A DNA stretch of 64,000 nt from NCBI GenBank assembly GCA_029210585.1, contig JARGFP010000003.1, positions 62,001 through 126,000 on the forward strand, written 5' to 3'. Positions within the stretch are counted from its first letter, which is position 1. Every line of letters starts with the position of its first letter. The position numbers were made by a program, and so were the translations under genes. Source of the DNA: Bacteroidales bacterium. GTDB taxonomy: Bacteria > Bacteroidota > Bacteroidia > Bacteroidales > GCA-2748055. Shown piece by piece: positions 33,122 through 50,823 of this stretch. The notes beneath the pieces are model-generated. The model had not been told where the DNA came from. It saw only the letters and a program-made list of their open reading frames with translations, and did no database searches.

Positions 33122-34948
33122 ATGGCATATCAGAACATTGAAAACTACGGGATGATCGGGAACATGCGGACCGCTGCCCTGGTGGGGATGGATGGATCCA
33201 TTGACTGGATGTGTTTTCCGCATTTCGATTCGCCCAGCATATTTGCGAAGATGCTGGATGCGCACAAGGGAGGGCATTTCAAAATTGCCCCGTGCGATAC
33301 GGATCTTACGCAGAAGCAGTTCTACTGGCCGGACACCAACGTGTTGGTCACCCGTTTCATGGGTCATCATGGTGTCTGTGAAGTGGTGGATTATATGCCG
33401 GTAGGGACCACCAGGATCGGGGATCATCAGAACCGGCTGGTCAGGCTGGTCCGGATTATCCGTGGGAAAATGAAGATACGGGTGGAATGCACTCCGGCGT
33501 TTAATTATGCACTTGCTTCACATGAAGTGAGCGTGAGTGCGCATGGTGCTGCTTTTCATTCTGAAGCGCTTTCCATGGGGCTGGCTACTTTCGTTCCGTT
33601 GAAAGTCGAAGGGAAAGGGGTCACAGCTGAATTTGAATTGTCATGTGAAGAAAATGTCAATTTCGTGTTGCATGCACTGGAGAAAGAGAAAGCCTGCGAA
33701 ACCTGTTTTTCTGACGAGGAGGCCCGGGAGGGACTGGTGGATACGATTGAGTTCTGGGATCGCTGGGTCGAAAAATGCACCTACAAGGGCCGCTGGCGGG
33801 AGACGGTAATTCGTTCCGCATTGACATTAAAGCTTCTGACCTTTGAACCCACCGGTGCCATTGTTGCTGCTCCAACGTGCAGCCTGCCCGAATACCTTGG
33901 CGGGGAGAGGAACTGGGATTACCGGTATACCTGGATCAGGGATGCGGCTTTTACGGTATATGGACTGATGCGGATCGGTTTTACCGAAGAAGCGGAGCGG
34001 TTCATGCACTGGATCGATGAACGGTGCCATGAACTGCGTCCCGACGGGTCCATGCAGATCATGTACGGGATCGACGGCAGGCATGTCCTGGAGGAAAAAC
34101 AACTGGATCACCTGGAGGGGTATGCCGGGTCTTCTCCCGTTCGTATTGGCAATGGGGCCTACAACCAGATGCAGCTGGACATTTACGGGGAACTGCTTGA
34201 TTCGGTCTACCTGTACAATAAATACGGGAGTCCCATTTCCTATGATCTCTGGACACAATTGCGCAGGCTGATCAACTGGGTAGCTGATAACTGGCAGAAG
34301 AAGGATGAAGGCATCTGGGAAGTCAGGGGAGGCAAACAGCACTTTGTTTACTCGAAACTGATGTGCTGGGTGGCGCTGGACCGGGGGATCCGCCTGGCAG
34401 AGAAGCGGTCATTTCCATCGGAAAAAGGTCGCTGGCTGGAAGAGCGTGACAAGATCTACGAGGAGATTATGGAAAGGGGATGGGACACGGAACTGCAGAC
34501 GTTTGTTCAGCATTATGAGAGCAAGACACTGGATGCGGCCAACCTGATGATGCCGCTCACTTTTTTTGTTTCCCCCACCGACAAGCGTATCCTGAAGACC
34601 ATCGAGGCCACCATGAAAAGTCCCGAGGAGGGCGGACTGGTATCCGACAGCCTCGTGTACCGTTATAATGTGCAAGAGACGGCAGACGGGTTGCGCGGGG
34701 AAGAAGGCACCTTCAATATCTGCACCTTCTGGATGGTTGAGGCACTTACCCGGGCAGGCCATAACGATGAGAAAAAGCTGGACCAGGCCCGGCTCATGTT
34801 CGAGCAGATGCTCACCTATGGCAATCACCTGGGACTGTATGCCGAAGAGACCGGTCCGCGCGGCGAGGCACTTGGTAATTTCCCTCAGGCCTTTACCCAC
34901 CTCTCATTGATCAGTGCGGCATTTAACCTCGACCGGGCGTTGAAGTGA
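33122..34948 (+). CDS. Glycoside hydrolase family 15 protein (glucoamylase/trehalase-like)
   Basis: A 608-residue cytoplasmic enzyme of the GH15 type lacking a signal peptide. The N-terminal beta domain begins [20 protein letters not shown] with [16 protein letters not shown]. The (alpha/alpha)6 barrel contains [17 protein letters not shown], the conserved motif near the first catalytic acid, and a second conserved block [20 protein letters not shown]. Bacterial homologues hydrolyse alpha-glucans or trehalose; which one cannot be told here. It ends LDRALK-stop exactly at the left direct repeat that flanks the AbiE-like insertion. It is probably co-transcribed with ndh. Confidence 0.92.
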
Positions 34949-34951
34949 TGC
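34931..34951. repeat. Left direct repeat flanking the AbiE-like module (attachment-site-like)
   Basis: 21 bp, GACCGGGCGTTGAAGT at its core, covering the last codons of the GH15 gene. The right copy at 36920-36940 differs at one position (G/A) only. Confidence 0.8.
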
Positions 34952-34956
34952 TGAAC

Positions 34957-36003
34957 TCAGCCTTTTTTTAGACTCATATACCAATAAAAAAAAGCTTCGG
35001 CATTGGTCTTTTTTAATTTATTTATTTTGGTAAATATCGGGTCCTCAATTAACCATTCTTTAATCTCTGACGGATTTTTAAATCTTTCTATTTTCGGGTT
35101 TTTCCCGCTATTTATTAAGGTAGTCAGGTAGGCCACTTTAGATGCGGCAGTTATGGCCTCTTCTATTGCAAAACGCTCAACCGTAAAATTCGTAAAGTTC
35201 TTAATTCCTAATTGCAGGTGATTGTATTCCTCTGATTTTAAGTTTCTTTCAGAGAGCGTGTAACAGGCTTGCCAGGTATCTTTTAATACTTCACCCGCAT
35301 TTACGTTCAATTTTCGGTATCCAATTTCTTGTTGTACAACTTTTGAATAACTGTTCCTGATAATGTTGAGATCAATTATCCTGTCAAACAGATACGCGAT
35401 GTCGTATAACTGTTTGATGATTTCAACCGGCCGGTTTTTGGAATACAGGATACCGGTAGTTTTTGGTGCAAATGCGGTAAGTTTATCACCCAGGATTGCT
35501 TCAAAAGTTGGCAAAACAACCAATGTGTCTTCGCCCGATGTTGCCAGCCAATTGTGTTTTACCGGATATTTCCTGGTCTGGGGATATGGATTCGGAGCAT
35601 ACAACAAATCGAGTAATATTGGTTCTTCATTTCCATCTACAACACTTTTGTAAAACATTTTGAAATGCCCTACCGGAGTGCCGTGAGAAAGTTTCCTGTT
35701 GTTGTCGTCTTCCCAGCGGATAAACATATCCAGTTTGCTTAACTTATCAAGAATCATCCTGATATTATTTTCCGTTTCATGGGTAATAATGTCTATATCT
35801 ATTGAAACCCGTTTAGGGGTTTCAGTTGTCAGCAACAATGCAGTCCCGCCTTTAAAAACAAACTCCAAACCGTTCAACTGCAATTGTTCAAGAAGGGTTA
35901 TTGCATAAATTACCTTTTCAATCAGCTTTGGGTCAATGCGTTTTCCTATCTTACCCCTCAGACTGGTAATCCATTCTATTGTATATGATTTCTTATCTAT
36001 CAT
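34957..36003 (-). CDS. AbiEii/AbiGii-type nucleotidyltransferase toxin
   Basis: A 348-residue toxin-like nucleotidyltransferase of the AbiEii (MNT) fold. The signature FVFKGGTALLL near residue 50 and VSIDIDIIT near residue 70 give the GG-x-A ... D-x-D catalytic core. A helical C-terminal half follows (LKDTWQACYTLSERNLKSEE ...). Family members act in type IV toxin-antitoxin or abortive-infection systems, by transferring nucleotides to tRNA in some studied cases. The ATG at 36003 is preferred; a GTG at 36024 is possible. It is the second gene after its DUF6577 partner (29-bp gap), AT-rich relative to its neighbours, and enclosed by direct repeats, which points to recent acquisition. Confidence 0.88.
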   Translation of the reverse strand: MIDKKSYTIEWITSLRGKIGKRIDPKLIEKVIYAITLLEQLQLNGLEFVFKGGTALLLTTETPKRVSIDIDIITHETENNIRMILDKLSKLDMFIRWEDDNNRKLSHGTPVGHFKMFYKSVVDGNEEPILLDLLYAPNPYPQTRKYPVKHNWLATSGEDTLVVLPTFEAILGDKLTAFAPKTTGILYSKNRPVEIIKQLYDIAYLFDRIIDLNIIRNSYSKVVQQEIGYRKLNVNAGEVLKDTWQACYTLSERNLKSEEYNHLQLGIKNFTNFTVERFAIEEAITAASKVAYLTTLINSGKNPKIERFKNPSEIKEWLIEDPIFTKINKLKKTNAEAFFYWYMSLKKG

Positions 36004-36032
36004 CAGGGAATATAATATAGGCACACTGGCTG

Positions 36033-36635
36033 TTATTTTGCCAAACTTATATTTATTAACTCTTTCACTTCATTTTCCCTGTTTCTGCGAAGCGCGTAAC
36101 GTTTCATTTTTTTTTCATTTATTGCATACTTCTCTATTGCAGTTTTTACAATATATTCTGTTTCGTTTTGCTGGGCCGAAAAGAGATTTCTGTCTGTCAA
36201 CATGTCAACCAAAAGTTTTTCCAATGCCGGAATAACGATCTTTTGAGATTCCGCTAAAGGAGCTTCTGAAATAAGGCTTTTGACAATAATAACTCCATCC
36301 AGGTTTTCAATATACCTGGTAAATATTTCTTCAGATGGGTTCAGGAAAACATTATTGGTTGTTTCATTGAGAAATCCAAAAACAGGTTCAGAAGCGTCTT
36401 TTTCCACTTCAACAACAGTGTAATATTTAAATGGTTGGTGCCGCATAAAATCGTTAAGCCATCTGCTTTCCCAAACACAAAAATTTATATACAGAAACTC
36501 CCGTTTGATTTTGTTGTATATTTTTATTAGAGAGTTTGAAACGTTGGGACTGAACAGGGCTCTGCTGCCCAATTCATACAGCCCTTTGGAAGGTGTACTG
36601 ATTGTTCCCTTTCTTTTCAATTTTGACAAATACAT
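36033..36635 (-). CDS. DUF6577-type partner (antitoxin-like) of the AbiEii protein; true N-terminus lies further upstream
   Basis: 200 residues from the first ATG (36635). It matches the DUF6577-type partner that precedes AbiEii genes in Bacteroidota (KGLYELGSRALFSPNVSNSL ... NETEYIVKTAIEKYAI). The same frame stays open without a stop to 36767 and encodes a convincing winged-helix N-terminus (LSKKKIVASIKEDFPHW then SDNTINMYLSKLKRKGT). The ATG at 36635 falls inside that helix-turn-helix, so the real start is upstream. Only ATT (36761), ATA or CTG codons are available there, so either a rare start is used or the start codon is mutated. In AbiE systems the partner is an autoregulating antitoxin. 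Confidence 0.8.
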   Translation of the reverse strand: MYLSKLKRKGTISTPSKGLYELGSRALFSPNVSNSLIKIYNKIKREFLYINFCVWESRWLNDFMRHQPFKYYTVVEVEKDASEPVFGFLNETTNNVFLNPSEEIFTRYIENLDGVIIVKSLISEAPLAESQKIVIPALEKLLVDMLTDRNLFSAQQNETEYIVKTAIEKYAINEKKMKRYALRRNRENEVKELINISLAK

Positions 36636-36814
36636 ATTAATTGTATTGTCAGACCAATGAGGAAAGTCTTCCTTTATTGATGCAACTATTTTCTTTTTAG
36701 AAAGCCTGTTGCTTTCCCGGAAGTAATATTCAATATGTTGTTCCAGTGTTTCTATCAGAATTGTCTTTTATTGTAAATGTAATATTAATTATTATAAAAA
36801 AGGCAATAAATACA

Positions 36815-36841
36815 TTAATTTGCCGAACTTATATTTACATT
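36815..36841 (-). repeat. Second copy of the 3' end of the DUF6577 gene
   Basis: A sequence resembling the last codons of the DUF6577 gene (36032-36058) recurs here in the same orientation. About 21 of 23 bases match. Read on the minus strand it gives NVNISSAN-stop against LINISLAK-stop in the gene. It suggests the remains of a second partner gene or of a duplicated module edge. Confidence 0.6.
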
Positions 36842-36919
36842 ATTCGTTAAAAGCATAGTAAAAATTACTTACAATTAAATCCATTTTGTTCATGGGTAAT
36901 CTTTGTAGCGCTCAAGTTT

Positions 36920-36940
36920 GACCGGGCGTTGAAGTAATGC
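36920..36940. repeat. Right direct repeat flanking the AbiE-like module (attachment-site-like)
   Basis: Copy of the GH15 3' end (F-D-R-A-L-K-stop in the same reading as L-D-R-A-L-K-stop at the left). 20 of 21 bases are identical to 34931-34951. Confidence 0.8.
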
Positions 36941-37058
36941 CGTCCTTTCAGTAAGGATTCCCATCTGAAGCCGACTCTTTCTTCATGGAGCGCGTTTCAC
37001 AATTTCGGAACACGACTCCTGCATTGTATACATTGGACGTACTTAACAGGAATGAATC

Positions 37059-39710
37059 ATGGGAGCTTCAGGAAAGGAAGAGGAACGCCTCGGCGCGCAT
37101 TACACGTATGGAAAAAACTGGCTGAAGTGGGGGCCGTACCTTAGTGAAAGACAGTGGGGTACCGTGAGGGAAGACTATAGTCACGACGGGAAGGTATGGG
37201 AGTATTTTCCTCATGATCATGCGCGAAGTCGTGCTTACAGATGGGGAGAAGATGGTATCGCCGGGATCAGCGATGCATTTTGTAACTTCTGTTTTGCCCC
37301 TGCTTTCTGGAATGGGAAAGATCCTATCATCAAGGAGAGGTTGTTTGGATTATCCGGTAATCAAGGCAATCATGGTGAGGATGTGAAGGAACTTTACTAT
37401 TACCTGGACAGCACCCCTACGCATTCCTATATGAAGCATCTCTACAAGTATCCTCAGAATGAATATCCCTACGATGAACTGATAGCTATCAACAATAAAC
37501 GGTCAAGGTCTGAAGGAGAATACGAGCTGCTGGATACTGGAATTTTCGACGAACACAAGTATTTTGATATCTTCACGGAATATGCCAAGGCGGATGAGGA
37601 GGACATTCTGATCCGGATCACTGCACATAACCGGGGAAAAGATACTGCGAAGCTCACCGTCATTCCAACGCTTTGGTTCAGAAATCTATGGAGTTTTGGC
37701 CAGGTGAAGCAAAAACCGGTCATCGCACCCGCAAAGACGGCTTCAGCCTTTGGACAGGTAACAGCTAAGCATCCGCAGTTGGGCACCTACTTCCTGAGCT
37801 TTGAAAATCCGGATTATCAGCTTTTTACTGAAAACGAGACCAACCAGGAGCGGTTGTTCGGAGTTCCGAACGCGTCGCCGTATGTTAAAGATGCCATCAA
37901 TGATGCCATCGTCACCGGTAAGTATGAACTGTTTAATGACCATGCAGAGGGAACAAAGTTCGCCCCGGTGTATGAATTACAGATCGGTGGCGGAGAACAT
38001 GCGGAGGTCAGGTTACGTTTATCAGAAAAGCAACCTGAGACAAACCCTTTACTGAAAAATTTTGAAAGGATTTTTCAGGATCGTATTGCAGAAGCTGATA
38101 CATACTATAATGCTTTATGCGTGGCTGATCAGGAGCTGAAAAATATTCAGAGGCAGGCATTTGCAGGCATGCTTTGGAGTAAGCAATACTACAATATCGA
38201 TGTTCCGCGATGGATCAATGGAGATCCCGGGCGGCCCGCTCCACCTGCCAGCCGGAAAAATGGACGGAACAGTGACTGGTTCACACTGAACAACGAGGAC
38301 ATTATCTCGATGCCTGATAAATGGGAATATCCCTGGTATGCTGCCTGGGACCTGGCATTTCATTGTGTTCCACTGGCGATGGTGGATGCTGAATTTGCCA
38401 AGGGGCAGTTGATTTTGTTTTTGAGGGAATGGTATATGCGGCCCAATGGGCAATTACCGGCATACGAATGGAATTTTAGTGATGTGAATCCGCCGGTGCA
38501 TGCATGGTCCTGTATGAAAGTTTACCGGATTGAGAAAGACAGGACAGGGAAGGGTGATATCCATTTCCTGAAAAAGGCATTCCAGAAGTTGCTGATCAAT
38601 TTTACCTGGTGGGTGAACCGGAAAGACCACAACGACAACAATGTTTTTGAAGGCGGTTTTCTGGGGCTTGACAATATCGGTGTATTTGACAGGAGTGCAT
38701 TTATTCCCGGAGGAGGACATCTTGAACAGGCCGACGGGACAAGCTGGATGGCCATGTACTGCCTGAACATGCTGGATATGGCCCTCGAAATTGCCCAGGT
38801 GGATGCTTCCTTTGAGGATGTTGCAACAAAATTTTTCGAACATTTTGTATACATCGCAGAATCTTTGAACAGGATAGGAGAGGACTGGACAGGAGCATGG
38901 GATGAAGAAGAAGGATTTTTCTACGATCTGCTGGCCAAACCAGGTGGAACATACATTCCCCTGAAGGTACGTTCACTTGTGGGGTTAACTTCTTTTTTTG
39001 CTACGTTGGTTCTTGACAAGGAACGCCTGAGTAATGTTCCTGATTTTGTGAAACGGCTGAACTGGTTCCGTAATTACCGCAGGAAAAATCAGTTCTATAC
39101 GGTTGTTGAGGAAATGAAAGCGGGAGAGGATATCCTGTTGTCATTGACACCCCGGAACCGGATTGAAAAATTACTGACCGCATTGCTTGATGAAAATGAA
39201 TTCCTGTCAAAGCATGGAATCCGGAGCTTGTCAAAAATTCATACAACGCCCTACGCAGTTCATATTGAGGGTGTCGATTATGGTCTTCAGTATGAGCCGG
39301 GAGAAAGCAACAGCAACCTATTCGGCGGAAATTCCAACTGGCGGGGTCCTGTATGGTTGCCTGTGAACTATCTGCTTATAGATTCACTCAAGACCCTGTA
39401 CCGGTACTATGGCAGTTCGCTGCTTCCGGCGTGCCCGGCCGGTTCCGGCAGGATGGTCAGTCTCGACCAGGTGGCAGGAGACATATCCCGGGGACTGATT
39501 TCTCTTTTTGAAAAAGACAGCAAGGGCAACAGACCTGTACACAGTGATCATCCATTGTACCGGAGGGATCCACATTTTAAGGACCTGGTATTGTTCTATG
39601 AATATTTTCACGGTGACAGTGGCAGTGGTCTCGGCGCCTCTCATCAGACCGGGTGGACAGGTCTTGTTGCAGAATTAATTGCCGGCCTGGAAACGGATGG
39701 ACATCCATGA
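37059..39710 (+). CDS. GH63-like glucosidase (MGH1-type glycosidase)
   Basis: A large cytoplasmic enzyme of 883 residues with an N-terminal beta-sandwich and a C-terminal (alpha/alpha)6 barrel, as in bacterial GH63 alpha-glucosidases. Typical blocks are LGAHYTYGKNWLKWGPYLSE and WGEDGIAGISDAFCNFCFA at the start, EDIISMPDKWEYPWYAAWDL with the catalytic-acid region, and LFGGNSNWRGPVWLPVNYLL near the C-terminus. Substrate is presumably an alpha-glucoside. Together with GH15 it suggests storage-glucan or trehalose turnover feeding the pgi/zwf genes. The ATG at 37059 lies 118 bp beyond the right direct repeat, so GH15 and this gene were probably adjacent before the insertion. Confidence 0.88.
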   Translation: MGASGKEEERLGAHYTYGKNWLKWGPYLSERQWGTVREDYSHDGKVWEYFPHDHARSRAYRWGEDGIAGISDAFCNFCFAPAFWNGKDPIIKERLFGLSGNQGNHGEDVKELYYYLDSTPTHSYMKHLYKYPQNEYPYDELIAINNKRSRSEGEYELLDTGIFDEHKYFDIFTEYAKADEEDILIRITAHNRGKDTAKLTVIPTLWFRNLWSFGQVKQKPVIAPAKTASAFGQVTAKHPQLGTYFLSFENPDYQLFTENETNQERLFGVPNASPYVKDAINDAIVTGKYELFNDHAEGTKFAPVYELQIGGGEHAEVRLRLSEKQPETNPLLKNFERIFQDRIAEADTYYNALCVADQELKNIQRQAFAGMLWSKQYYNIDVPRWINGDPGRPAPPASRKNGRNSDWFTLNNEDIISMPDKWEYPWYAAWDLAFHCVPLAMVDAEFAKGQLILFLREWYMRPNGQLPAYEWNFSDVNPPVHAWSCMKVYRIEKDRTGKGDIHFLKKAFQKLLINFTWWVNRKDHNDNNVFEGGFLGLDNIGVFDRSAFIPGGGHLEQADGTSWMAMYCLNMLDMALEIAQVDASFEDVATKFFEHFVYIAESLNRIGEDWTGAWDEEEGFFYDLLAKPGGTYIPLKVRSLVGLTSFFATLVLDKERLSNVPDFVKRLNWFRNYRRKNQFYTVVEEMKAGEDILLSLTPRNRIEKLLTALLDENEFLSKHGIRSLSKIHTTPYAVHIEGVDYGLQYEPGESNSNLFGGNSNWRGPVWLPVNYLLIDSLKTLYRYYGSSLLPACPAGSGRMVSLDQVAGDISRGLISLFEKDSKGNRPVHSDHPLYRRDPHFKDLVLFYEYFHGDSGSGLGASHQTGWTGLVAELIAGLETDGHP

Positions 39711-39786
39711 GCAGGCAGAGCCGCCGTATGTACAAGCGGAGGAGGAAGAATTGTTCGTAAGCCTTAACAGACAAGTACCCTTCCGA

Positions 39787-41430
39787 CTAACTTGCACAAC
39801 AGCTTAGTGTCGAAACATCTTTACCGAAAGTTATTGCTGCCAGTTTAATACCTTCCCCCAATGTCAGGTACGGATAAAAACTATTTGCTAAATCTTCAAC
39901 GGTAATCCCGTATTTGATGGCCATGCTCAATTGCTGGATAAGTTCTCCGCCTTCTGGAGCAACTATCCTGGCTCCAATGAGTTGATCGGTTTCAGTATTG
40001 CGGATGAGTTTGATAAAACCCCGGGTATCATTGGCCGCCAATGCTCTTGGCACATCTTTAAGTTCCAGTTTGGAAACTTCAAACGGGATATTCATTGCTT
40101 TGGCCTGTACCTCATCCATTCCGGCGCCAGCCACTTGCGGATCGGTGAACACCACCCAGGGCAGGGAACTGTAGTCTGCATTTTTTCCCGTCCCTGAAAA
40201 GGCATTTTCGACAGCAATTTTCCCTTCAAACGCTGCCGTATATACAAAGGCAGGCGTGTCGGCCACATCACCGGCGGCGTAGATATTGGGCAAGTTGGTC
40301 TCCATTTTTTCATTTACCTTTATATGCCCGTTTTTGGTCAGTTCCACCCCCAGGTTTTTTAATCCCATGTTTCCTGTATTCGGACTTGTCCCTGTTGCAA
40401 TAAGGATCCTGCCACTTTCAACAAGCCGGATAAGAGAACCATCCGGTCGTTTACAATGAATGATGACATCATTCCCGCTTTTTTCGAATTTCATGGCCCG
40501 GTAGTTAGGTAATATTTCTATTCCCTCTTTCTGCATCTGGGTTTCCAGTGTGTCACTGATGTCAGGTGTCTGGGTCCTCAGAACACGGTCGGTAAATTCA
40601 ATGATACGCACATTTACTCCCAGCCGGTTGTATGCCATGGCGATTTCCAGGCCGATATAGCCTGCACCCATGATTGTCATACTTCCCGGTTTTTCTTCCA
40701 GGTCGAAGAGGGACGCATTGGTGAGATAATCAATTTCATTGATGCCTTCAATAACGGGAATATTGGTGGTCGCTCCCGTGGCGATGAGAAACTTCAGGGC
40801 TTTGTATTCTTTACCGTCTGCAACGATGGTTTTTCTATCTTTAAATGTTGCCCAGCCCTTCAACAAAGTTAAAGACTCAAAGTCACTTACTACATCCATG
40901 TATTTTTTTTCCTGTAAGCTCGCAACCAGCTTCTTCTTGTCCTTTATAATTTGTGCAAAATCTATATCTGCTCCTTTTGGCCGGATGCCGGTAAAGTTGG
41001 AATGACTTGCGTGGAAGGCTGCTTCTCCTGCCCTAACCAGGTTCTTTGAGGGAACACACCCTATGTTTACACATGTTCCGCCAAAGTCGAGGCCTCCATT
41101 TACCATGAGGGTTGACAGTCCCAGGCTTTCAGCTTTGATGGCTGCGGAAAAAGCCGCCGAACCACCTCCGATGATAATCAGATCGAACGAGGAGGATTCA
41201 TTGTTCTGAGATATTTTTTCACCAACCACCTGGTAATGCCCGGTGCTGTTAACTATTTCAGATATTTCTTCCTTGCTGATTTTTCCGGGATCGTATTCAA
41301 ACCTTCCGCTGGCATCCGGGTAACTGATGTTTTTTGATAAAATACCGGTTTTGTCTCCAAATTTTTTGGCAATGGTTTGCGCACAATGGTCACAGGTCAT
41401 GCCCTTGATTTCGAATTCTACTATTTGCAT
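39787..41430 (-). CDS. merA: Mercuric reductase with N-terminal heavy-metal-binding domain
   Basis: Reduces Hg(II) to volatile Hg(0) with NADPH; 547 residues. The HMA domain has GMTCDHC (Cys13/Cys16). The flavoprotein core has IIIGGGSAAFSAAIKA, the redox disulfide GGTCVNIGCVPSK (Cys120/Cys125), an NADPH-binding IMGAGYIGLEIAMAY and the FAD motif NIYAAGDVADTP. The C-terminus carries the MerA-specific vicinal pair SCCAS (Cys544/545) that hands Hg(II) to the active site. That set separates it from lipoamide dehydrogenases and from the paralogue at 55275. It is last in the minus-strand arsR-merTP-merA operon. Confidence 0.97.
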   Translation of the reverse strand: MQIVEFEIKGMTCDHCAQTIAKKFGDKTGILSKNISYPDASGRFEYDPGKISKEEISEIVNSTGHYQVVGEKISQNNESSSFDLIIIGGGSAAFSAAIKAESLGLSTLMVNGGLDFGGTCVNIGCVPSKNLVRAGEAAFHASHSNFTGIRPKGADIDFAQIIKDKKKLVASLQEKKYMDVVSDFESLTLLKGWATFKDRKTIVADGKEYKALKFLIATGATTNIPVIEGINEIDYLTNASLFDLEEKPGSMTIMGAGYIGLEIAMAYNRLGVNVRIIEFTDRVLRTQTPDISDTLETQMQKEGIEILPNYRAMKFEKSGNDVIIHCKRPDGSLIRLVESGRILIATGTSPNTGNMGLKNLGVELTKNGHIKVNEKMETNLPNIYAAGDVADTPAFVYTAAFEGKIAVENAFSGTGKNADYSSLPWVVFTDPQVAGAGMDEVQAKAMNIPFEVSKLELKDVPRALAANDTRGFIKLIRNTETDQLIGARIVAPEGGELIQQLSMAIKYGITVEDLANSFYPYLTLGEGIKLAAITFGKDVSTLSCCAS

Positions 41431-41481
41431 TATAAAATATTAATAATTTAATTAAAAGCTTAAATAATTGAATAATTTTTT

Positions 41482-42108
41482 TTATTGGCTTCCCAGGACC
41501 TTGTAGCCAGTATTGTTGATTGCTTGTTGAATCTGAGCCACATCTACTTTCGACTGGTCAAATTGTACTTCAGTGGTGGCTTCTTCATAATTGGCTTTCA
41601 CTTTGAGAATTCCGGGCAGTTTGTTGACATCATTTTCCACGTGTGCAGTACAACTGTTGCAAGTCATCCCTTTAACCTCAAAAGCAACCTTTTGGATCTC
41701 GGAAGCATTAACGATAACTACTTCTTTTTGATCATCAGTAGTGTAGAAGATATGTTCATAATGAGGAAATGCAAGCATTATCACAGAAAATATAGTTACA
41801 ATGCCGAGAAATTTCCCGGATTGCCAGAAATTGGGTTTACCTGCATTGACGGCAGACTGGGTTTCGTCTTCGCAGGCGCACTGGATTTCTTCATCAGTTC
41901 GTGGTTTAAGTTTTTGATACCAGGCAAAACCCAGTACCAATATCGTGATGCCGATCAGATACGGTCTTGCAGGTTCCATCCACGAAAAGGAAGAAGCTAC
42001 ACCAGAGGCTCCTGAAATAATGGCCAACACAGGGGTAATACAACAAAGCGAAGCAGCAATTGCGGATAGCACTCCCGCTCCAACAAGCCTATTTGTGTTT
42101 TTTGTCAT
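41482..42108 (-). CDS. merTP: Mercuric transport fusion protein MerTP
   Basis: A 208-residue inner-membrane Hg(II) importer that joins MerT and MerP. The MerT part has three helices, with the Cys pair SLCCITPVLAI (Cys22/Cys23) in the first and a cytoplasmic CAC motif (EIQCACEDE) in the loop. After the third helix a MerP/HMA domain follows with VKGMTCNSCTAHVEND. In classical operons MerT and MerP are separate proteins; fusion is common in Bacteroidota. The start overlaps the arsR stop by 4 bp (ATGA), so translation is coupled. Confidence 0.94.
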   Translation of the reverse strand: MTKNTNRLVGAGVLSAIAASLCCITPVLAIISGASGVASSFSWMEPARPYLIGITILVLGFAWYQKLKPRTDEEIQCACEDETQSAVNAGKPNFWQSGKFLGIVTIFSVIMLAFPHYEHIFYTTDDQKEVVIVNASEIQKVAFEVKGMTCNSCTAHVENDVNKLPGILKVKANYEEATTEVQFDQSKVDVAQIQQAINNTGYKVLGSQ

Positions 42109-42482
42109 GCTTTTTCCTTTTTAGCATTATCAATTAAATTCTTGAATGTCTGTCGCAATAATGTCTCCTTTCCTGACATGAGAGAGTAATAAATGGTCTG
42201 CCCCTCTCTTCTGCTTTCTATTAGGTTCCCGTCTTTAAGTTTTCTCAGGTGCTGTGAAACGGCCGGGACGCTCATTCCAAGAATATCAGATAAGTCGCAT
42301 GGGCAGAGCTCATTTTCTTCATCCAAAAGGAACAATATCTTTAGTCTTACCTCATTGCCGGCAAGTGCTAATATTCTACTTTGCCGGCTTAAAGCATTCT
42401 GATTCATTTGAAGTATTACCCTGCAATTGTCAATTTGCACTTCATCGGCAAACAGCCGGACACAAGATTGTTTATTTTCCAT
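42105..42482 (-). CDS. ArsR/SmtB-family regulator of the mercury operon
   Basis: A 125-residue winged-helix repressor with ALAGNEVRLKILFLLDEE, the metal-site motif ELCPCDLSDILGMSVPAVSQ (Cys60/Cys62) and the recognition helix continuing HLRKLKDGNLI, then a beta wing (ESRREGQTIYYSL). Two more cysteines (Cys7, Cys20) could complete a thiolate site as in CadC-like sensors. It replaces MerR here and should release DNA on Hg(II) binding. First gene of the operon; a perfect 16-bp palindrome lies 44 bp upstream of its start. Confidence 0.93.
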   Translation of the reverse strand: MENKQSCVRLFADEVQIDNCRVILQMNQNALSRQSRILALAGNEVRLKILFLLDEENELCPCDLSDILGMSVPAVSQHLRKLKDGNLIESRREGQTIYYSLMSGKETLLRQTFKNLIDNAKKEKA

Positions 42483-42525
42483 TTTTATCCATTATAGTGT
42501 ATTAACACAATAGACTTATAAATGT

Positions 42526-42541
42526 TTGCTTATATAAGCAA
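42526..42541. promoter_or_regulatory. Palindromic operator candidate for the mercury operon
   Basis: TTGCTTATATAAGCAA is a perfect 16-bp inverted repeat in the 237-bp spacer between the divergent arsR and DsrE genes. Its size and AT-rich centre fit ArsR/SmtB operators. It could regulate both directions. Confidence 0.6.
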
Positions 42542-42719
42542 TAAATTAAATAAATATTTGTTTAGTGATGGACTATATATAAGTGGAGAATAAGGCATTC
42601 AAAAATTAAATTATATTAACTTTCCTGATCTATTCAAGTAAGCCACTACTATGTTTAATACGCTTTAATCCTTAATGGTTGATATTTCTAAATAGTACCA
42701 TTTTTAAATTTAAAAAACC

Positions 42720-43076
42720 ATGCAAAAAATTCTGATTTTGATTAACGATGCGCCCTACGGAACAGAAAAGGCGTATAATGGATTACGTCTGGCCAACCAA
42801 TTGAACAAGGCCCACGAAGATGTGGAAGTTCGCGTTTTCCTGATGGCCGATGCAGCTTCCTGTGCTGTGGCCGGACAAACAACACCCAATGGATATTATA
42901 ACATTGAGCGGATGATGAAATACTCTATTAATAAAGGCGCCAGAGTAAAAATCTGTGGCTCATGTGCCGATGCACGGGGGTTGAAAAACGTTCAGCTCAT
43001 AGAAGGCGCAGAAATCAGCACCATGGCAGAATTCACACAGTGGGTGGTTGAAAGTGATAAATTGATCTCATTTTAA
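42720..43076 (+). CDS. DsrE/DsrF-family sulfur-relay-like protein (cytoplasmic)
   Basis: A 118-residue DsrE-fold protein (MQKILILINDAPYGTEKAYN) with candidate sulfur-carrying cysteines in DAASCAVAGQ (Cys48) and KICGSCADARG (Cys79/Cys82). Members bind or transfer persulfide sulfur or serve as unknown small redox proteins. It is divergent from the mercury operon and shares its control region, so a link to thiol or metal stress is possible. Its stop overlaps an ATG (TAATG) that opens an 18-codon frame in the following spacer. Confidence 0.88.
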   Translation: MQKILILINDAPYGTEKAYNGLRLANQLNKAHEDVEVRVFLMADAASCAVAGQTTPNGYYNIERMMKYSINKGARVKICGSCADARGLKNVQLIEGAEISTMAEFTQWVVESDKLISF

Positions 43077-43252
43077 TGCAAAACAATATCTTTGACTCCC
43101 TGGCTGCTGATAAATGGAACCAGGTTTATTGAATACAAGGTCTCGATTTACAGGAACAACATACCCTGAAGCAGGAGGTTCCTAATGATAAAATATGGGA
43201 TCTAAATCATGACAGGCAGTGGTATTTATTATTCATAAAAACGAATAAAACT

Positions 43253-43693
43253 ATGATGAAGACAAAGAAAATTTCTACAATTGTCTTGCTGATCCTTGTT
43301 TTTTCAGCAACAGGATTGAAGGCGCAGGAACCCGATCCTGCCAGGACAAATCAGAGCTCCGATTCACTGGTTATCCTCTGGACCAGTGACGATCCCATGC
43401 TCGCTGAACGAATGGTACTGATGTATACCCATGCTGCAAAAACTGCCGGTTGGTTTGAACATGTAACCCTGATCATCTGGGGACCATCTGCAAAGCTGAC
43501 AGCAGAAAACATGAAGATTAGGGAGAAGCTTACGGCCATGCAAAATGACGGTGTGGTGATCGAAGCCTGCGTAGCCTGTGCAAATGCCTATGGTGTAACC
43601 GAGGAGCTGAAAGCACTCGGGTTCGATGTGAAGGGCATGGGGAAACCCCTCACCGATTATCTGAAAAGCGGTAAGAAGGTGATGACTTTTTAG
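43253..43693 (+). CDS. Exported DsrE-family protein
   Basis: A 146-residue protein with a clear signal peptide (VLLILVFSATGLKAQ) and then a DsrE-like fold (LVILWTSDDPMLAERMVLMY ... VTLIIWGPSAKL). Candidate sulfur cysteines lie in VIEACVACANAYGV. It is a periplasmic relative of the cytoplasmic DsrE protein upstream; the two may form a sulfur or thiol relay across the membrane, which is inference. The first two codons are both ATG. It lies 176 bp after the first DsrE gene. Confidence 0.85.
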   Translation: MMKTKKISTIVLLILVFSATGLKAQEPDPARTNQSSDSLVILWTSDDPMLAERMVLMYTHAAKTAGWFEHVTLIIWGPSAKLTAENMKIREKLTAMQNDGVVIEACVACANAYGVTEELKALGFDVKGMGKPLTDYLKSGKKVMTF

Positions 43694-43864
43694 AAAATTG
43701 CATTTATTTTGACCAGTTTGCGTTTTGTTTTGGTATATGGATGACTTATAATAATTCCCGGTATGAACATCAATTGATAATTACTATTCTTCACTTTTAT
43801 TATAAAAGTCAGCAAATAATTTGCATCCTATAATCAATTTCCTTTTTTTTGATGCAAAAATTGT

Positions 43865-46800
43865 ATGGCATCGGTTTATGGAAAAACATGGTGGGGTCAG
43901 CAATGGCTCAATTCTCTGAATAATATCGACTATAGCAACCGTTTGCCACGTGGAGCCTCCTATGCACGCAAAGGGGCGGTAAAAAAAATAGGCATAAATG
44001 GTAACCGGATAAAAGCAAAGGTGGCCGGTAGCCGGTCCACGCCGTATAATGTAGATATCATTATTCCCCCTTTTTTCGATCCCGAACTGGGCAATTTCCT
44101 TAAAGACATACAGCAGCGCCCTGTTATTATTTCAAAATTGCTGAATCGCGAACTCGACCCTGCTGTACTTGAACTGGCAGAAAAATCAGGACTAAAGGTT
44201 TTTCCACATCAGTGGAGCGACCTGAAAATGCAATGTTCGTGCCCCGACTGGGCGGTCCCCTGCAAACACCTGGCCTCGGTTATTTACAAAGTAAGTGCGG
44301 AAATTGATAACAATCCGTTCCTGGTATTTGAGTTGCATAGAGTTGATTTACAGGGAGAAATGGCTAAAGCGGGGGTAGTAATCAACAGCATGTCTATCGA
44401 AGTCCCGCGTATAAATAACCTGTTGTTCGGAAAAGCGACAAAGAATACAGCTTATGACACCGAAACAGCTTATCAGAAGATGGATTTTTCGGGTCTGGAG
44501 CCCCTGCATGAATCATTAACTGCGCTGCTTTCTTCGATGCCCGCTTTTTACACGGCTTCGTCAACCGATTTCCGCGACAGATACCTGGCTACACTTAAAC
44601 GAGTGGTAAAAAACACCCAGCGTGCTGCTTCAGGAAAAGTGGCCTTGCCCGAATATTTCAAAAGCGCTTACTCCGATAACATCAGCATAGGCCACCGTTC
44701 CACTCATTCAGTAACGCTTGATGAAGCTTTGCATGCCAGGGTAATTAGCGATGAAAATGAATTTACGGTAAGTGAGTTTCTGCAACAAATCTCGCATATA
44801 CCGGGGACACGCACCCTCGATTTTCAGCCTTCCACGGCCGCCCTGCACACTGCCCTCCATCTGGCGTTGCAACTTACTGCCAATGGTGCCATCATACCCC
44901 AAATAGTGCAATTACCCAATAAGGAGTATTCGGTACGCTGGCTTCCTGCTTTATTGAGTAAGAAGGTGATGAAACTGTGTAACGAACTGGATGAGATACT
45001 TCCTCCCGATGTATTTACCGGAATAAGCCGCAATGCAACAAAACCTGTGAATAAAGACCGGGCTGTAAATTTGCTGTCTTTGCTGATTACTGAAATGGTA
45101 GATCTTGCAAGTTTTGAAGTTAACAATGACCCATTTCTGGAGCTGTTCTTTAAAAATGTAAGCTATGCCTTTTCCAGACCCGGAGAGGAATCCCTTGCCG
45201 GGGGAATCATGGCGTGGCTTAAGAAGTTCTATCTGTCGCAGGGTGATGCCAAGCCTTTACTTGTTGTGGAAGAATCCGGCAACGAGCGGTTCAGGGTGAA
45301 CATTGATGTTCGCCTTCCGGATGGAACATTAAAAAACAGTGTCTCGCTAGAAAGTGTGCTTACACAAAAGGAATTCGAGCACCGCAGGTATGAAATTTTA
45401 CAGACGCTGGCACTACTGAGTAGTTTTATTGAAGGGCTCGATGATTACATTAATTCCTTTGGGAAGAAAGAGATTATCATGGACGGTACCGTTTTTGCCA
45501 CTTTTCTGATGAAAATAGTACCGGCCATTCAACTGCTTGATATACCTGTATTGCTGCCGAAATCGTTGCAAAGTATTCTCAAACCAAAACCAAGTGTCAA
45601 ATTAAAAACCAAAGGCAAAGTCTCAGGGTTTTTACGACTCGATAAGCTGCTTGATTTTGAATGGCAGGTGGCCGTGGGCGATACACTAATGGATGAAGCT
45701 GAATTCAGGCAATTGTTACAACAGTCCGAGGGCCTGATACGGTTTAAGACGAATTATATTTACGTTGAAAAAGAGGAACTGGAAAAACTATACAAGCATT
45801 TTACATCATCAAAACAGCTTACCTCCTTTCAGCTGATGAGGGCAGCGCTTTCGGGCGAATACCAGGGGGCTGCCATTGCCTATGACAGTGAAGTGGAACA
45901 ATTGATACAGGAACTTAGCGGGGTGAATGAAACGCCTTTGCCCGGGGGGCTTGTAGCAAAATTACGGCCCTACCAGCACCGCGGTTTTTCCTGGATCTAC
46001 CGGAATGCACGTGTTGGATTTGGTTCGGTACTCGCCGATGATATGGGGCTGGGTAAAACCCTACAGGTCATTGCCACAATACTTAAATTTAAAGAAGAGG
46101 GACACCTCATTCAAGAAAAAGCACTGGTTGTGGCGCCAACCGGACTGTTAACCAACTGGCTGGCTGAGATTCAAAAATTTGCCCCCACACTCCAGGCTGA
46201 AATCTATCATGGACCAAACCGCTGTTTTGACAATACAGATAGTTATGATGTGCTGATTACCTCATACGGTATTATGCGAAGCGATGCCGATATCCTGAAA
46301 AAAAAGAAATGGTACATGATGATTATCGATGAGGCCCAAAATATAAAAAATACCAGTACAGCACAGACCAAGGCTGCAAAATCCATAAAAGCCGAAAATT
46401 TCGTGGCTATGAGCGGCACCCCGGTCGAAAACAGGCTGAGTGAACTGTGGAGCATCATGGATTACAGCAACCGTGGGTTTCTGGGGAGCGCTAAAGAATT
46501 TGCCGGCACTTATGGTAATCCGATCGAACAACTGAATGATGCCGATGTAGCCGATAAACTTAAAAAGGTAACAGCACCATTTCTGATGCGCCGTCTGAAA
46601 TCGGACAAAAGCATTATCAGTGACCTCCCTGATAAATTGGAGATAGATAGTTTTGCTGCGCTTACAAAGGAGCAGGCAAGCCTTTACGAAAAAACACTTG
46701 AGAAAGCCATGATGGAAATCGAGGGGATACGAACCTCGGACCAGCAATCGCTTTTTGTGCGGCAGGGGCTTGTACTCCAGATGATTCTTGCGTTGAAACA

Positions 46801-47377
46801 GGTGTGCAACCACCCAGCGCAGTTCCTGAAAAATGGAGAAAATGATCCTTCCCTCAGCGGAAAAACAGCATTGCTGTTTGATAAACTTGACAGCATTGTT
46901 GACAGCAATGAAAAGGTATTGCTTTTTACCCAGTTTACTGAAATGGGCAGGCTACTGGAACAGTTTATTGCAGAAAGGTATGGCGACAAACCCCTGTATT
47001 ATCATGGTGGATGCAGCCTGAACCAGCGAAAAGAAATGGTAGAACGATTCCAGACCAACCATGCCGATAAAATTTTTCTGCTATCGCTTAAAGCTGCCGG
47101 AACAGGACTTAACCTTACTGCAGCAAGTCATGTAATCCATTACGACCTGTGGTGGAACCCCGCCGTGGAAGCCCAGGCCACCGACCGGGCCTATCGTATT
47201 GGACAAAAAAACAATGTGATGGTACACCGATTTATTACCAGGAATACTTTCGAGGAGCGCATCAACGAGATGATTCAACAGAAAAAAGCACTGGCCGAGA
47301 TGACTGTTTCCACAGGCGAAAACTGGATTGGCAACCTGTCGAATAAAGAGTTGCGGGATATTTTTGATTTGGAATAG
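43865..47377 (+). CDS. SNF2-family helicase with N-terminal SWIM zinc finger
   Basis: A 1170-residue DNA-dependent ATPase. The SWIM finger CSCPDWAVPCKHLASV lies near residues 122-137, followed by a long middle region (SNF2_assoc-like). The two RecA lobes follow: Walker A ADDMGLGKTLQVI near 724, IIDEAQNIKN (DEAQ) near 822, MSGTPVENRLSELWSIMDYS, and in lobe 2 LFTQFTEMGRLLE, LLSLKAAGTGLNL and ATDRAYRIGQ. Such RapA/HepA-like proteins remodel nucleic-acid-protein complexes; many bacterial copies are orphan. No methylase or nuclease gene is adjacent, so there is no basis to call it a defence system. It appears monocistronic. Confidence 0.93.
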   Translation: MASVYGKTWWGQQWLNSLNNIDYSNRLPRGASYARKGAVKKIGINGNRIKAKVAGSRSTPYNVDIIIPPFFDPELGNFLKDIQQRPVIISKLLNRELDPAVLELAEKSGLKVFPHQWSDLKMQCSCPDWAVPCKHLASVIYKVSAEIDNNPFLVFELHRVDLQGEMAKAGVVINSMSIEVPRINNLLFGKATKNTAYDTETAYQKMDFSGLEPLHESLTALLSSMPAFYTASSTDFRDRYLATLKRVVKNTQRAASGKVALPEYFKSAYSDNISIGHRSTHSVTLDEALHARVISDENEFTVSEFLQQISHIPGTRTLDFQPSTAALHTALHLALQLTANGAIIPQIVQLPNKEYSVRWLPALLSKKVMKLCNELDEILPPDVFTGISRNATKPVNKDRAVNLLSLLITEMVDLASFEVNNDPFLELFFKNVSYAFSRPGEESLAGGIMAWLKKFYLSQGDAKPLLVVEESGNERFRVNIDVRLPDGTLKNSVSLESVLTQKEFEHRRYEILQTLALLSSFIEGLDDYINSFGKKEIIMDGTVFATFLMKIVPAIQLLDIPVLLPKSLQSILKPKPSVKLKTKGKVSGFLRLDKLLDFEWQVAVGDTLMDEAEFRQLLQQSEGLIRFKTNYIYVEKEELEKLYKHFTSSKQLTSFQLMRAALSGEYQGAAIAYDSEVEQLIQELSGVNETPLPGGLVAKLRPYQHRGFSWIYRNARVGFGSVLADDMGLGKTLQVIATILKFKEEGHLIQEKALVVAPTGLLTNWLAEIQKFAPTLQAEIYHGPNRCFDNTDSYDVLITSYGIMRSDADILKKKKWYMMIIDEAQNIKNTSTAQTKAAKSIKAENFVAMSGTPVENRLSELWSIMDYSNRGFLGSAKEFAGTYGNPIEQLNDADVADKLKKVTAPFLMRRLKSDKSIISDLPDKLEIDSFAALTKEQASLYEKTLEKAMMEIEGIRTSDQQSLFVRQGLVLQMILALKQVCNHPAQFLKNGENDPSLSGKTALLFDKLDSIVDSNEKVLLFTQFTEMGRLLEQFIAERYGDKPLYYHGGCSLNQRKEMVERFQTNHADKIFLLSLKAAGTGLNLTAASHVIHYDLWWNPAVEAQATDRAYRIGQKNNVMVHRFITRNTFEERINEMIQQKKALAEMTVSTGENWIGNLSNKELRDIFDLE

Positions 47378-47549
47378 CCGGAGGAGTTGTGAACAGGTGA
47401 AGCGCTTATTCACTGCGTTCAAACCGTTCTGCATTGCGATCATAGATCATTTAGGGCATGGTCTCTCAGGGGTATTCCGGAACGCAAGATGAGCAAATGG
47501 AATATTACCATGGATGCTTCAGTGCGGTTTTGAATATGAAATAAATATT

Positions 47550-48110
47550 ATGAGCAGAATAAAAGTAATTCAACACGAAGAAGCCACCGGAAGGTTAAAA
47601 GAGATTTATGACGACCTGATTACAAAGCGGGGTAAACTGGCCGACGTACACAAAATACAAAGTCTGCGCCCCGAAAGCATTGTGGCTCATATGGATTTGT
47701 ATATGGAAATCATGTTTTCGAAATCGGAACTTTCACGTGCCGAGCGCGAAATGATGGCAGTGGTAGTCTCGGTTGGCAATGGTTGCGAGTACTGCCAACT
47801 ACACCATGCGCAGGCATTAAACAACTATTGGAAAAACGATGAAAAAACCAACCGGCTTCGCAATGATTTTGAAAATGCAGACCTCACCTCCCGTGAATTG
47901 GTGTTGTGCAGCTTTGCCAATCTTTTAACAATACATCCGGAAGTCTACCAGGATGAAAAATACTTAGCTCCTTTAAAAAGGATAGGAATTACCGATGACG
48001 GTATTTTAGATGCCACTTTGGTTGTAGCCTACTTTAATTTTGTAAACCGCATTGTGTTGGCGCTTGGGCTGGAAGCAACTGAAGCCGAAGTGAAAGGATA
48101 CAAGTATTGA
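47550..48110 (+). CDS. AhpD-like carboxymuconolactone decarboxylase-family protein
   Basis: A 186-residue peroxidase-related protein of the AhpD fold. Catalytic motif GNGCEYCQLHHAQAL (Cys79/Cys82 and the following His) matches the C-x2-C-x3-H pattern used for peroxide or disulfide chemistry. The ATG at 47550 opens the natural N-terminus (MSRIKVIQHEEATGRLKEIY); an upstream in-frame start adds unrelated residues. It follows the helicase gene after 172 bp and is convergent with the small barrel gene. Confidence 0.88.
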   Translation: MSRIKVIQHEEATGRLKEIYDDLITKRGKLADVHKIQSLRPESIVAHMDLYMEIMFSKSELSRAEREMMAVVVSVGNGCEYCQLHHAQALNNYWKNDEKTNRLRNDFENADLTSRELVLCSFANLLTIHPEVYQDEKYLAPLKRIGITDDGILDATLVVAYFNFVNRIVLALGLEATEAEVKGYKY

Positions 48111-48121
48111 TTCCAGCCCTG

Positions 48122-48676
48122 CTAAAAAGCAAAACCAGCCGTTACTCCGAATCGTAAATCGCGGCTGTATCCTTTATTTAATTCAGTTTCTCCGCTGCCT
48201 GGTTCACCTTCTTCTGTTATAAATACTGGAATACCATAACCAGCAAACACCGACAATACCAACCGGTTGATGTGATATTGATACCCCGCATTCAGTCCGG
48301 CAAATACCGCATGGTAACGATGCGATAATCCACTTACTTCAATCGAATTTTCCTGGCCTGCACGATATTTTGAATACAATCCGGCAAACAATCCATTGGC
48401 CATCTGCTGGGTTTTTGAAAAGTAACGCCGGTATTCCAATGCGATGGAATTGAGCGCTTTATCTTCATCCTTAAATATGCCGTTGAAGTGGTGTTCGTAG
48501 CCAAGCCAAACCGATTGTCTGTTAAAATAATGTTCAAAAGAGACTACTGAACTTCCTACTGGGATTGCCAACAGGTTAATCGCTGCATTGTTTTTATATT
48601 CATTTTTTGAAGGTTGTGCGTTTATTTGAAAACTAAAAGTAAAGGCCAGAAAAATAAACCAGGTTTCCCTTTTCAT
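48122..48676 (-). CDS. Small outer-membrane beta-barrel protein, function unknown
   Basis: A 184-residue protein with a signal peptide (FLAFTFSFQINAQ) and alternating beta strands rich in aromatic residues (SVVSFEHYFNRQSVWLGYEH; HAVFAGLNAGYQYHI; LRFGVTAGFAF), ending in Phe as outer-membrane barrels do. It resembles the eight-stranded porin-like or DUF3575-type families. No enzymatic motif seen. It stands alone on the minus strand, convergent with the AhpD-like gene. Confidence 0.72.
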   Translation of the reverse strand: MKRETWFIFLAFTFSFQINAQPSKNEYKNNAAINLLAIPVGSSVVSFEHYFNRQSVWLGYEHHFNGIFKDEDKALNSIALEYRRYFSKTQQMANGLFAGLYSKYRAGQENSIEVSGLSHRYHAVFAGLNAGYQYHINRLVLSVFAGYGIPVFITEEGEPGSGETELNKGYSRDLRFGVTAGFAF

Positions 48677-48999
48677 GTTTACGGATTTTTCATGTATACA
48701 TTCAGTTGATTGTATAGATCAACAACCCAAAAGCTATTTGGTTCCGGCTTTTTTCTAACATATGCGATGTAGCATGCATGTAGCTGAGAATTTCATGCAA
48801 CTCTGTAAGGAATCAATATCTCTTCCGACCATATACATGAAACTCAGAACGAAAAGAGATGAAAACAACAATGTTTATATCAACTCTGACGGGTAACTGG
48901 AGGGCACGCAACTTACCACTTCTGCGAAATTCGCCGCAGCCATTTTGTTCAATATTCCTTTTAAAAAGAACAAATTAATTTTTTACTAAAATATTAGCC
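48677..48999. other. Intergenic region (323 bp) between divergent barrel and DUF3179 genes
   Basis: AT-rich spacer that must carry promoters in both directions. I see no RNA gene, no strong hairpin and no repeat. An AT-rich leader (CAAATTAATTTTTTACT, from about 48971) precedes the DUF3179 gene. Confidence 0.5.
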
Positions 49000-50094
49000 A
49001 TGAGAAGAATTTCAATTCTACTGACAGCAGTAGTGATTGCACTTTCATCGTGCAGCGAGGATAACATGACCGACCCGGTCGTACAGCCCAATAATACGGC
49101 TGGTCCGAATGAAAATATGAATGATGATAATGGCTGGCTGATTCCATTTGACGAAGTACGCGACGGCGGCCCAGGCAAAGACGGGATTCCGGCCATTGAC
49201 GATCCCAAATTTATCAAGGCAAACGAAGCAGATTATTTAAATGACGATGATTTGGTACTGGGATTTGCTGATGGAGGCGAAGTACGGGCATATCCGCATA
49301 AAATTCTCGACTGGCACGAAATTATTAACGACGACACGCCGAACCACTCGCTGGCCGTAATTTACTGTCCGCTTACCGGTACCGGAATTGGCTGGGACCG
49401 CAATGTAGGTGGTAAAAAAACCACTTTTGGCGTATCGGGGCTCTTGTACAATTCCAACATTATTCCCTACGACCGGGCAACCGACAGCAACTGGTCGCAG
49501 CTTTTACTGAAATCAGTAAATGGAAAACTGGTGGGTACACGTCCGGTTATTCACAACCTGGTAGAAACTTCATGGAAGACCTGGAAAACCATGTTCCCCG
49601 ATTCAAAAGTGTTGTCACTAAGTACCGGGTACAATCGCAATTACCAGCATTATCCATATGGCACCTATAAAACGAATGAAAGCCTTTTATTCCCGGTTAG
49701 CAATACCAATTCGCGCATTCATCTGAAAGAAAGGGTATTGGCTGTGATTGAAAATGACAAGGCCATTGCGTTTCGCTTTGACCAACTTGAGACAAATGAG
49801 CATATGATTACTGCCCGGTTGAATGATAAAAACCTGGTCGTTACCGGTAATAAAAATGCAAACCTTATGGTAGCTTTCGACAGAACATTGCCCGATGAAA
49901 CCGTTCTTGATCTCCAGCCTTTAAACAATCAAATCCCAAATATATTAACGGATAACGAGGGGAATATATGGGATGTTTTCGGACGGGCAATTGATGGCCC
50001 GAGAGAGGGAGAAAAACTTCTTCCAGTTCCTCAAATGATGGGCTACTGGTTTGCTTTTGCAGCCTTTTATCCCGAAATAGTGTCTGTTCATTAA
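49000..50094 (+). CDS. DUF3179 domain-containing lipoprotein
   Basis: A 364-residue lipoprotein (lipobox LSSCSED, Cys18) with an acidic, Asn-rich linker and then a DUF3179 domain: GIPAIDDPKFIKANEADYLN, GEVRAYPHKILDWHEIIND, VIYCPLTGTGIGWDR, FGVSGLLYNSNIIPYDR and SNWSQLLLKSVNGKLVG. Function of DUF3179 is unknown. This copy has Thr where the second copy in the window (63289) has the second Cys of CPLCN, so if the domain uses a C-x2-C pair this one lacks it. It is monocistronic. Confidence 0.88.
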   Translation: MRRISILLTAVVIALSSCSEDNMTDPVVQPNNTAGPNENMNDDNGWLIPFDEVRDGGPGKDGIPAIDDPKFIKANEADYLNDDDLVLGFADGGEVRAYPHKILDWHEIINDDTPNHSLAVIYCPLTGTGIGWDRNVGGKKTTFGVSGLLYNSNIIPYDRATDSNWSQLLLKSVNGKLVGTRPVIHNLVETSWKTWKTMFPDSKVLSLSTGYNRNYQHYPYGTYKTNESLLFPVSNTNSRIHLKERVLAVIENDKAIAFRFDQLETNEHMITARLNDKNLVVTGNKNANLMVAFDRTLPDETVLDLQPLNNQIPNILTDNEGNIWDVFGRAIDGPREGEKLLPVPQMMGYWFAFAAFYPEIVSVH

Positions 50095-50324
50095 GTCCGA
50101 TAACTGCGTTACTGCAAAAATTCTAAATCCTCGAATACATTAGTATACTGCGGTTTATAATTTTTGCGTGCCTTGTTCTCGAACTTTATGATCCAGCCAC
50201 GTTGACTCTATTGACATACCCGAAATAGAATTGTAACATGCATCAAACACGGTAGCGCATCATTTTAACTGAATAATTTACGCTGCATGTGTAAATTTCC
50301 TGTTTTTGCTATAAATACGTTTTA

Positions 50325-50699
50325 ATGGGCAGGGTTTTTGATATAGATGCGGCAAAGGAATTTCAGCGAAATAAACTGAAAAAACAATAAGATGCTTTGG
50401 ATGTCCGGTATGAAAAAGCAACCCGTGATTTTCATACTATTTGTCAAATGATCATTCTTGATTTTCAACCCACCGCAATCTACCAGTGGGGTTCATTGCT
50501 TGATCGGACAAAATTTTCCCATATTTCAGATATCGATATTGCCGTGGAAGGAATCACCGATGCCCAGGAATATTTCACACTTTTAAGAAGAGCAGATGAG
50601 ATGACCGAATTCCCGGTTGATATAGTTCAACTGGAAAAGATACATCCCCTGCACAGTGAAATGATTATTAACAGGGGCGTTAAAATTTACAGAAAATGA
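50325..50699 (+). pseudogene. MNT-domain nucleotidyltransferase gene interrupted by one in-frame stop
   Basis: From the ATG at 50325 the frame reads MGRVFDIDAAKEFQRNKLKK, Q, then TAA at 50388-50390, then continues in the same frame DALDVRYEKATRDFH ... to 50699. The rest is a good minimal nucleotidyltransferase: YQWGSLLDRTKFSHISDIDI gives the GS-x9-D-x-D signature. The two halves together match the length and N-terminal style of this family, so a single nonsense change seems to have split the gene. Restart at the TTG (50397) could still give a 100-residue protein with the whole catalytic core. No HEPN partner is visible. Confidence 0.7.
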
Positions 50700-50823
50700 A
50701 GCCTTTGCTCTTCCCTCTTTGCACTTTCCCTCAATCTAATATTCACCAGCAAAAAAATTTCAGGATTTTAGTAAGGAGTGGCAATTTCTCCGACTGTTCT
50801 TCCAAACAAATAAGAATAGTAAA

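Follow-up and report, generated by a model that had tools for sequence, protein, structure and literature searches.

AbiE systems are type IV toxin-antitoxin systems in which a two-gene operon encodes the antitoxin first (AbiEi, COG5340) and then a nucleotidyltransferase toxin (AbiEii, DUF1814). In Streptococcus agalactiae, the promoter of this operon contains 23-bp repeats that act as AbiEi operators, according to the parts of the published accounts drawn on here (PMC3985639, PMC7319586). Two kinds of mobile unit also resemble the locus described below. Cis-mobilizable elements (CIMEs) are presented in the consulted sections of PMC5704250 as cargo that lies between direct repeats at the 3' end of a gene and carries no integration genes. 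Integron cassettes are small units with a repeat following the gene, and CALIN arrays that lack an integrase are known (PMC11389934). Here we analyze a 64-kb stretch of DNA from a Bacteroidales bacterium (hereafter the window, at its full length), in which a two-gene AbiE module is situated between two copies of a 21-bp direct repeat at the 3' end of a gene for a GH15 glycosidase.

In its gene content, the module does not stand out among AbiE systems. It shares with the described systems the two-gene order, the AbiEii toxin and the 23-bp promoter repeats, and differs from them in that its antitoxin belongs to Pfam family DUF6577 and that an operator-like half site is also present at the antitoxin/toxin junction. 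Direct repeats at the boundaries, such as those of the window module, are not mentioned in the available text of PMC3985639 and PMC7319586. In contrast to a CIME, the module has a size of only 2 kb and contains a single toxin-antitoxin pair, and we found neither a related integrase element nor evidence of an att core. In contrast to integron cassettes, its repeat is coding sequence of GH15, a comparison that was made without an attC search or a specific integron-integrase search. We tentatively favor the explanation that the module is a horizontally acquired AbiE cassette that came in as a unit together with a single copy of the repeat, through recombination at that sequence.

The two copies of the repeat agree at 20 of 21 positions. 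In a scan of the window for direct repeats separated by 1-4 kb (10-base seed, ungapped +1/-2 scoring), they form the sole pair with a score of at least 18, and one further pair scores 16. None of 20 Markov shuffles of the window reached a score of at least 18, while in a separate set of 20 shuffles two held one pair scoring at least 16. The repeat goes beyond what chance would give, and the claim of the initial annotation that the GH15 3' end recurs with one mismatch after the module is borne out. Sequences upstream of the core match between the left and right copies at 11/21 and 13/42 positions, and those downstream at 5/21 and 9/42. Since the identity of the flanks is this low, the duplication is essentially limited to the core of about 21 bp and is sharply bounded. 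No third copy with up to three mismatches was found in the whole genome (4.6 Mb in 116 contigs), which contains the 21-mer in the two window places only.

Direct repeats also bracket other modules of the same family. We searched 393 genomes for DUF6577-AbiEii modules; 59 of these genomes matched, and we took 40 of the listed places, mostly from the top. For each module, direct repeats were sought between the 700 nt on each side, and scores of at least 16 were counted. The scan was applicable to 40 of 45 modules in a first set and to 21 of 23 in a second set, as the rest lacked a flank or the antitoxin. The threshold was reached by seven modules of the first set (including the window) and by five of the second, i.e. 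by 11 of the 60 modules other than that of the window; if three tRNA-Arg loci that we took as orthologous are counted once, the figure is 9 of 58. None of 1,560 cross-locus pairings reached the same score. Among the control intervals, a repeat of this strength was present in 6 of 218 placed at random and in 6 of 117 bounded by genes beside modules, three of these at L147 and another three at L158. Gene-bounded intervals elsewhere gave 3 of 405; they came from GH15 loci and their relatives and from three module regions (L188-L190) in which the module itself had been left unmasked. The difference between modules (9/58) and the pooled gene-bounded controls (9/522) corresponds to a Fisher p of 1.3e-5, and to 0.0015 (6/55 versus 9/522) without L128, L139 and L144, whose repeats are multicopy. 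That mutually unrelated direct repeats bracket DUF6577-AbiE modules in excess of controls is the new observation of the present analysis; we found no report of such a pattern, or of DUF6577, in the literature searched, with subscription journals outside its scope.

The repeats around the sister modules are of several kinds. In L171, L175 and L176 the repeat comprises a tRNA-Arg(CCG) together with a downstream terminator-like stretch (112 bp), in L139 the 3' end of a Phage_integrase (tyrosine integrase) gene (about 247 bp), and in L149 the 5' end of a HAD-hydrolase gene with upstream DNA (about 182 bp). The module of L167 is bracketed by a 64-bp repeat that appears hairpin-like by eye, the repeats of L128, L130, L144, L151 and L178 were left unassigned to any kind of sequence, and L124, with a score of 14, was not counted. 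In L128 (positions 3892-7180), a 42-bp repeat is present three times; its copies enclose first a Fic-family gene (PF02661) and next the AbiE module, as in a succession of cassettes. In phages and plasmids, the search for the module matched one phage and three plasmid records, with 30.6-39.6% identity.

The tRNA-Arg locus allowed a comparison of genomes with and without the module. We searched six genomes of the genus of G680 using the DNA beside the module; five of them were assessed, as the match in G701 was confined to the tRNA. In G680, G657 and G442 the module is accompanied by a second copy of tRNA-Arg, which is decayed in G442. At the corresponding place, G517 and G760 lack the module and contain just one tRNA-Arg(CCG) next to tRNA-Met, and G760 keeps a 62-bp match to the end of AbiEii. 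The expectation in the initial annotation that genomes lacking the module would carry one copy of the repeat thus holds in part at this sister locus (three genomes versus two) and for one flank only, and no such genome was found for the window itself.

Table 1. Features of the AbiE module and its surroundings in the window
Feature	Position	Strand	Details	Sequence
Left copy of 21-bp direct repeat	34931..34951	+	Last five GH15 codons, stop codon and 3 nt	GACCGGGCGTTGAAGTGATGC
Right copy of 21-bp direct repeat	36920..36940	+	Outside listed open reading frames of at least 100 aa	GACCGGGCGTTGAAGTAATGC
GH15 glycosidase (TREH_N + Glyco_hydro_15)	33122..34948	+	608 aa, uninterrupted; 3' end is the left repeat	
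AbiEii-type nucleotidyltransferase toxin	34957..36024	-	355-aa open reading frame from GTG; PF08843 8.8e-19; PADLOC PDLC02299 3.3e-132	
DUF6577 / AbiEi-type antitoxin	36033..36758	-	PF20217 2e-80; PADLOC AbiEi 3.9e-87; start placed by eye	
GH63-like glycosidase	37059..39710	+	Right of module; PF22422 7.1e-19; PF03200 2.9e-5	
Operator-like 23-bp half site (putative)	36815..36837	-	Upstream of antitoxin gene; repeat scan	
Second operator-like 23-bp half site (putative)	36033..36055	-	Antitoxin/toxin junction; repeat scan	

The base composition of the module differs from that of its surroundings. In 500-base windows, the G+C content falls from 0.50-0.54 over most of GH15 to 0.34-0.41 within the module, and is 0.46 on its far side. 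The description of the enclosed 2 kb in the initial annotation as AT-richer than its neighbors and on the opposite strand is therefore accurate, as is its statement that no integrase is inside. AbiEii and DUF6577 are located between the repeat copies. The left repeat is separated from the AbiEii stop codon by five bases.

We examined the GH15-GH63 junction in relatives; the named relatives of the GH15 gene include Bacteroidales metagenome-assembled genomes. No empty junction was found, with GH15 sought in 61 genomes and the genome contig collection, and GH63 in 61 and 393 genomes. Genome G009 was the one relative seen with GH15 (90% identity) followed by GH63 (broken) in the same order. The gap between them is filled with another DNA segment of about 5 kb that encodes ScdA/hemerythrin, NorB, ArsR-rhodanese, a DsrE-like protein and a second, putative DsrE-like protein, and a second copy of the repeat is absent from this junction. 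By eye, the alignment of the GH63 leader suggests that the homology with G009 sets in near the right repeat. A relative of the G009 NorB gene (82%) is present on contig C57 of the window's genome, and a DsrE gene of G009 matches positions 42719-43075 of the window. The GH63 gene of G009 (L020, 13265-15267) lacks residues ~427-638 of the window protein at a junction. At L043 (GH15 identity 88%), there is no GH63 gene within its 17.8 kb, and only 65 nt separate GH15 from the next gene, which matches the one at window position 54153; relative to L043, positions 34950-54150 of the window represent about 19 kb of variable DNA, and G009 has about 9.5 kb at that place. GH15 and GH63 occur in reverse order at L044, 38 bp apart, and GH15 was not found within ~1.5 kb of the other GH63 genes at L073-L077 and L094. 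In the comparison of such junctions that the initial annotation had proposed, G009 has different DNA at the site (the 5 kb), and an empty site with a single repeat copy was not found.

According to the explanation that we tentatively favor, the cassette would comprise the genes for the DUF6577 antitoxin and the AbiEii toxin with their promoter region. It would have been acquired horizontally and inserted at the GH15 3' end as a module that brought a single copy of the flanking repeat with it, leaving GH15 intact and an extra copy of its end on the antitoxin side. There is no recombinase in the cassette; host recombination or repair at the short flanking identity would most likely have inserted it, possibly via a circle of module and repeat that joined by a single crossover, or by break repair that copied the end. 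The same repeat would permit a later loss of the cassette. We infer the acquisition from the base composition and from the relatives, and we likewise infer the direction of the event, the circular form and the machinery. Either host machinery or an integrase acting in trans may have been at work. The sister repeats differ in kind (tRNA-Arg, integrase 3' end, HAD 5' end); this variety speaks against a single sequence-specific recombinase and favors recombination or repair by the host, but for the 21-bp repeat of the window an integrase core is a serious alternative.

Several observations weigh against this explanation. A length of 21 bp is near or below that usually needed by RecA, and 21 bp at a gene end would also suit an integrase core. 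No empty GH15-GH63 site was found, G009 has other DNA and no second copy there, and the junction is a variable place in the sequences compared. At the tRNA-Arg locus, only the tRNA-Met side is shared: G657 alone resembles G680 in the far flank, where G442, G517 and G760 have no match. The support from this locus is therefore one-sided and falls short of a clean, exact empty site. As for the repeat excess, 49 of the 60 other modules have no bracketing repeat at the threshold, which itself was chosen after the first distribution had been seen, and at L128, L139 and L144 the repeat recurs elsewhere in the locus. Judged by the counts, the excess is also weaker against the module-side control alone (6/117).

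Three other explanations were weighed against these data. The possibility that the repeat arose by chance, or that the right copy is left over from a longer second copy of GH15, appears very improbable. The 11 matches in 21 positions immediately upstream of the core would agree with it, but the upstream identity drops to 13/42 and no shuffle attained the score of the pair. Moreover, LI[SN][AS]A stands directly before the core in all 26 GH15 homologues with at least 50% identity and a C-terminus, whereas the right copy reads VIFVALKF. Because the homologues keep this motif and the right copy does not, we rejected the right copy as a remnant of a decayed long GH15 gene. It is quite possible, though less likely than the favored explanation, that the locus is instead a CIME-like remnant. 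The repeats would then correspond to attL and attR of an element for which a tyrosine integrase specific for the GH15 3' end was once present or still acts in trans, and of which only the AbiE cargo is left. The GH15 3' end is preserved beside the repeat, and 21 bp falls inside the 8-60 bp range given for tyrosine-recombinase repeats in the consulted part of PMC5704250. The host genome also holds five Phage_integrase matches above the cut-off (none on contig C50), and the repeat-bounded modules L130 and L139 have an adjoining Phage_integrase gene. However, L145, which has no repeat, likewise has an integrase nearby; the search for integrases beside modules covered the first module set only, and not the 23 loci of the second. 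Homologues of two query integrases were found neither in the window nor at 35 GH15 loci (short contigs included), in a search that distant or serine recombinases could escape. The absence of a third core copy from the genome also speaks against this explanation, and the sister repeats span a whole tRNA with downstream DNA, or the 5' end of a gene, which is unusual for a core. The proposal of site-specific integration in the initial annotation is partly supported: it stands as far as the AT-rich, opposite-strand gene pair exactly at the GH15 3' end and the non-chance repeat are concerned, but it gains nothing from the search for an integrase, a third core copy or an empty site at the window junction. 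Its suggestion of an attachment core used in trans is compatible with 21 bp at a gene end; nothing identifies the repeat as an integrase core, with neither a third copy in the genome nor a homologue of the two query integrases in the window or at the 35 loci.

We consider it unlikely that the stretch from GH15 to the conserved block downstream is a breakpoint mosaic, in which the repeat would be a one-off duplication made at end joining and the cassette would not be mobile. Such a rearrangement scar would agree with the different gene content of the G009 junction, the NorB relative on C57, the match of the G009 DsrE gene to the window, and the direct succession of GH15 and the gene matching position 54153 at L043. 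Against it speak the sister modules that are recurrently bracketed by unrelated repeats and the joint presence of the module and the second tRNA-Arg copy.

The 23-bp repeat at the module promoter is probably an operator half site, and it resembles the S. agalactiae repeats. Repeats at the two places listed in Table 1 score at least 14 in 8 of 64 modules (window, L137, L138, L139, L153, L134, L164 and L174), compared with 0.8% of cross pairings. The half sites seem alike by eye across the eight modules, and the motif of the window is reversed relative to the L137 group. In a scan of homologues, TTNGGCAAA was found in three modules besides the window.

AbiEii homology begins at the ATG of residue 8 (36003), and PDLC02299 covers residues 8-352 (profile positions 1-341 of 344). 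The antitoxin gene lies upstream on the same strand, at a distance of 8 nt from the toxin frame with the GTG start or 29 nt with the ATG. The DUF6577 frame opens at 36767 and has its first ATG at 36635; because of this opening and since the PADLOC AbiEi match starts at profile position 7, the protein probably starts well upstream of that ATG. By eye, the likely start is CTG at 36758, where homologue L164 has TTG. No ATG is present at the start of DUF6577 homology (36756-36767), which reads CTG (or ATT) in the place of this TTG, so that initiation of the antitoxin could be atypical or weak.

A broader proposition is that DUF6577-AbiE modules constitute a class of recombinase-free mobile cassettes, which carry one copy of whatever host sequence is beside them, be it a tRNA gene, a gene end or a promoter, and re-enter genomes holding that sequence by homologous joining, leaving unrelated direct repeats of unequal age around the two genes. 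In this general form we regard it as decidedly doubtful. The bracketing by repeats suggests that genomes may acquire and lose DUF6577-AbiE pairs as whole units, although these pairs encode no recombinase. The movement of small defence and toxin-antitoxin pairs that lack recombinases is poorly understood, and the repeat excess, together with relatives that carry neither the module nor the second copy, offers a concrete and testable route via circles or deletions across the repeats.

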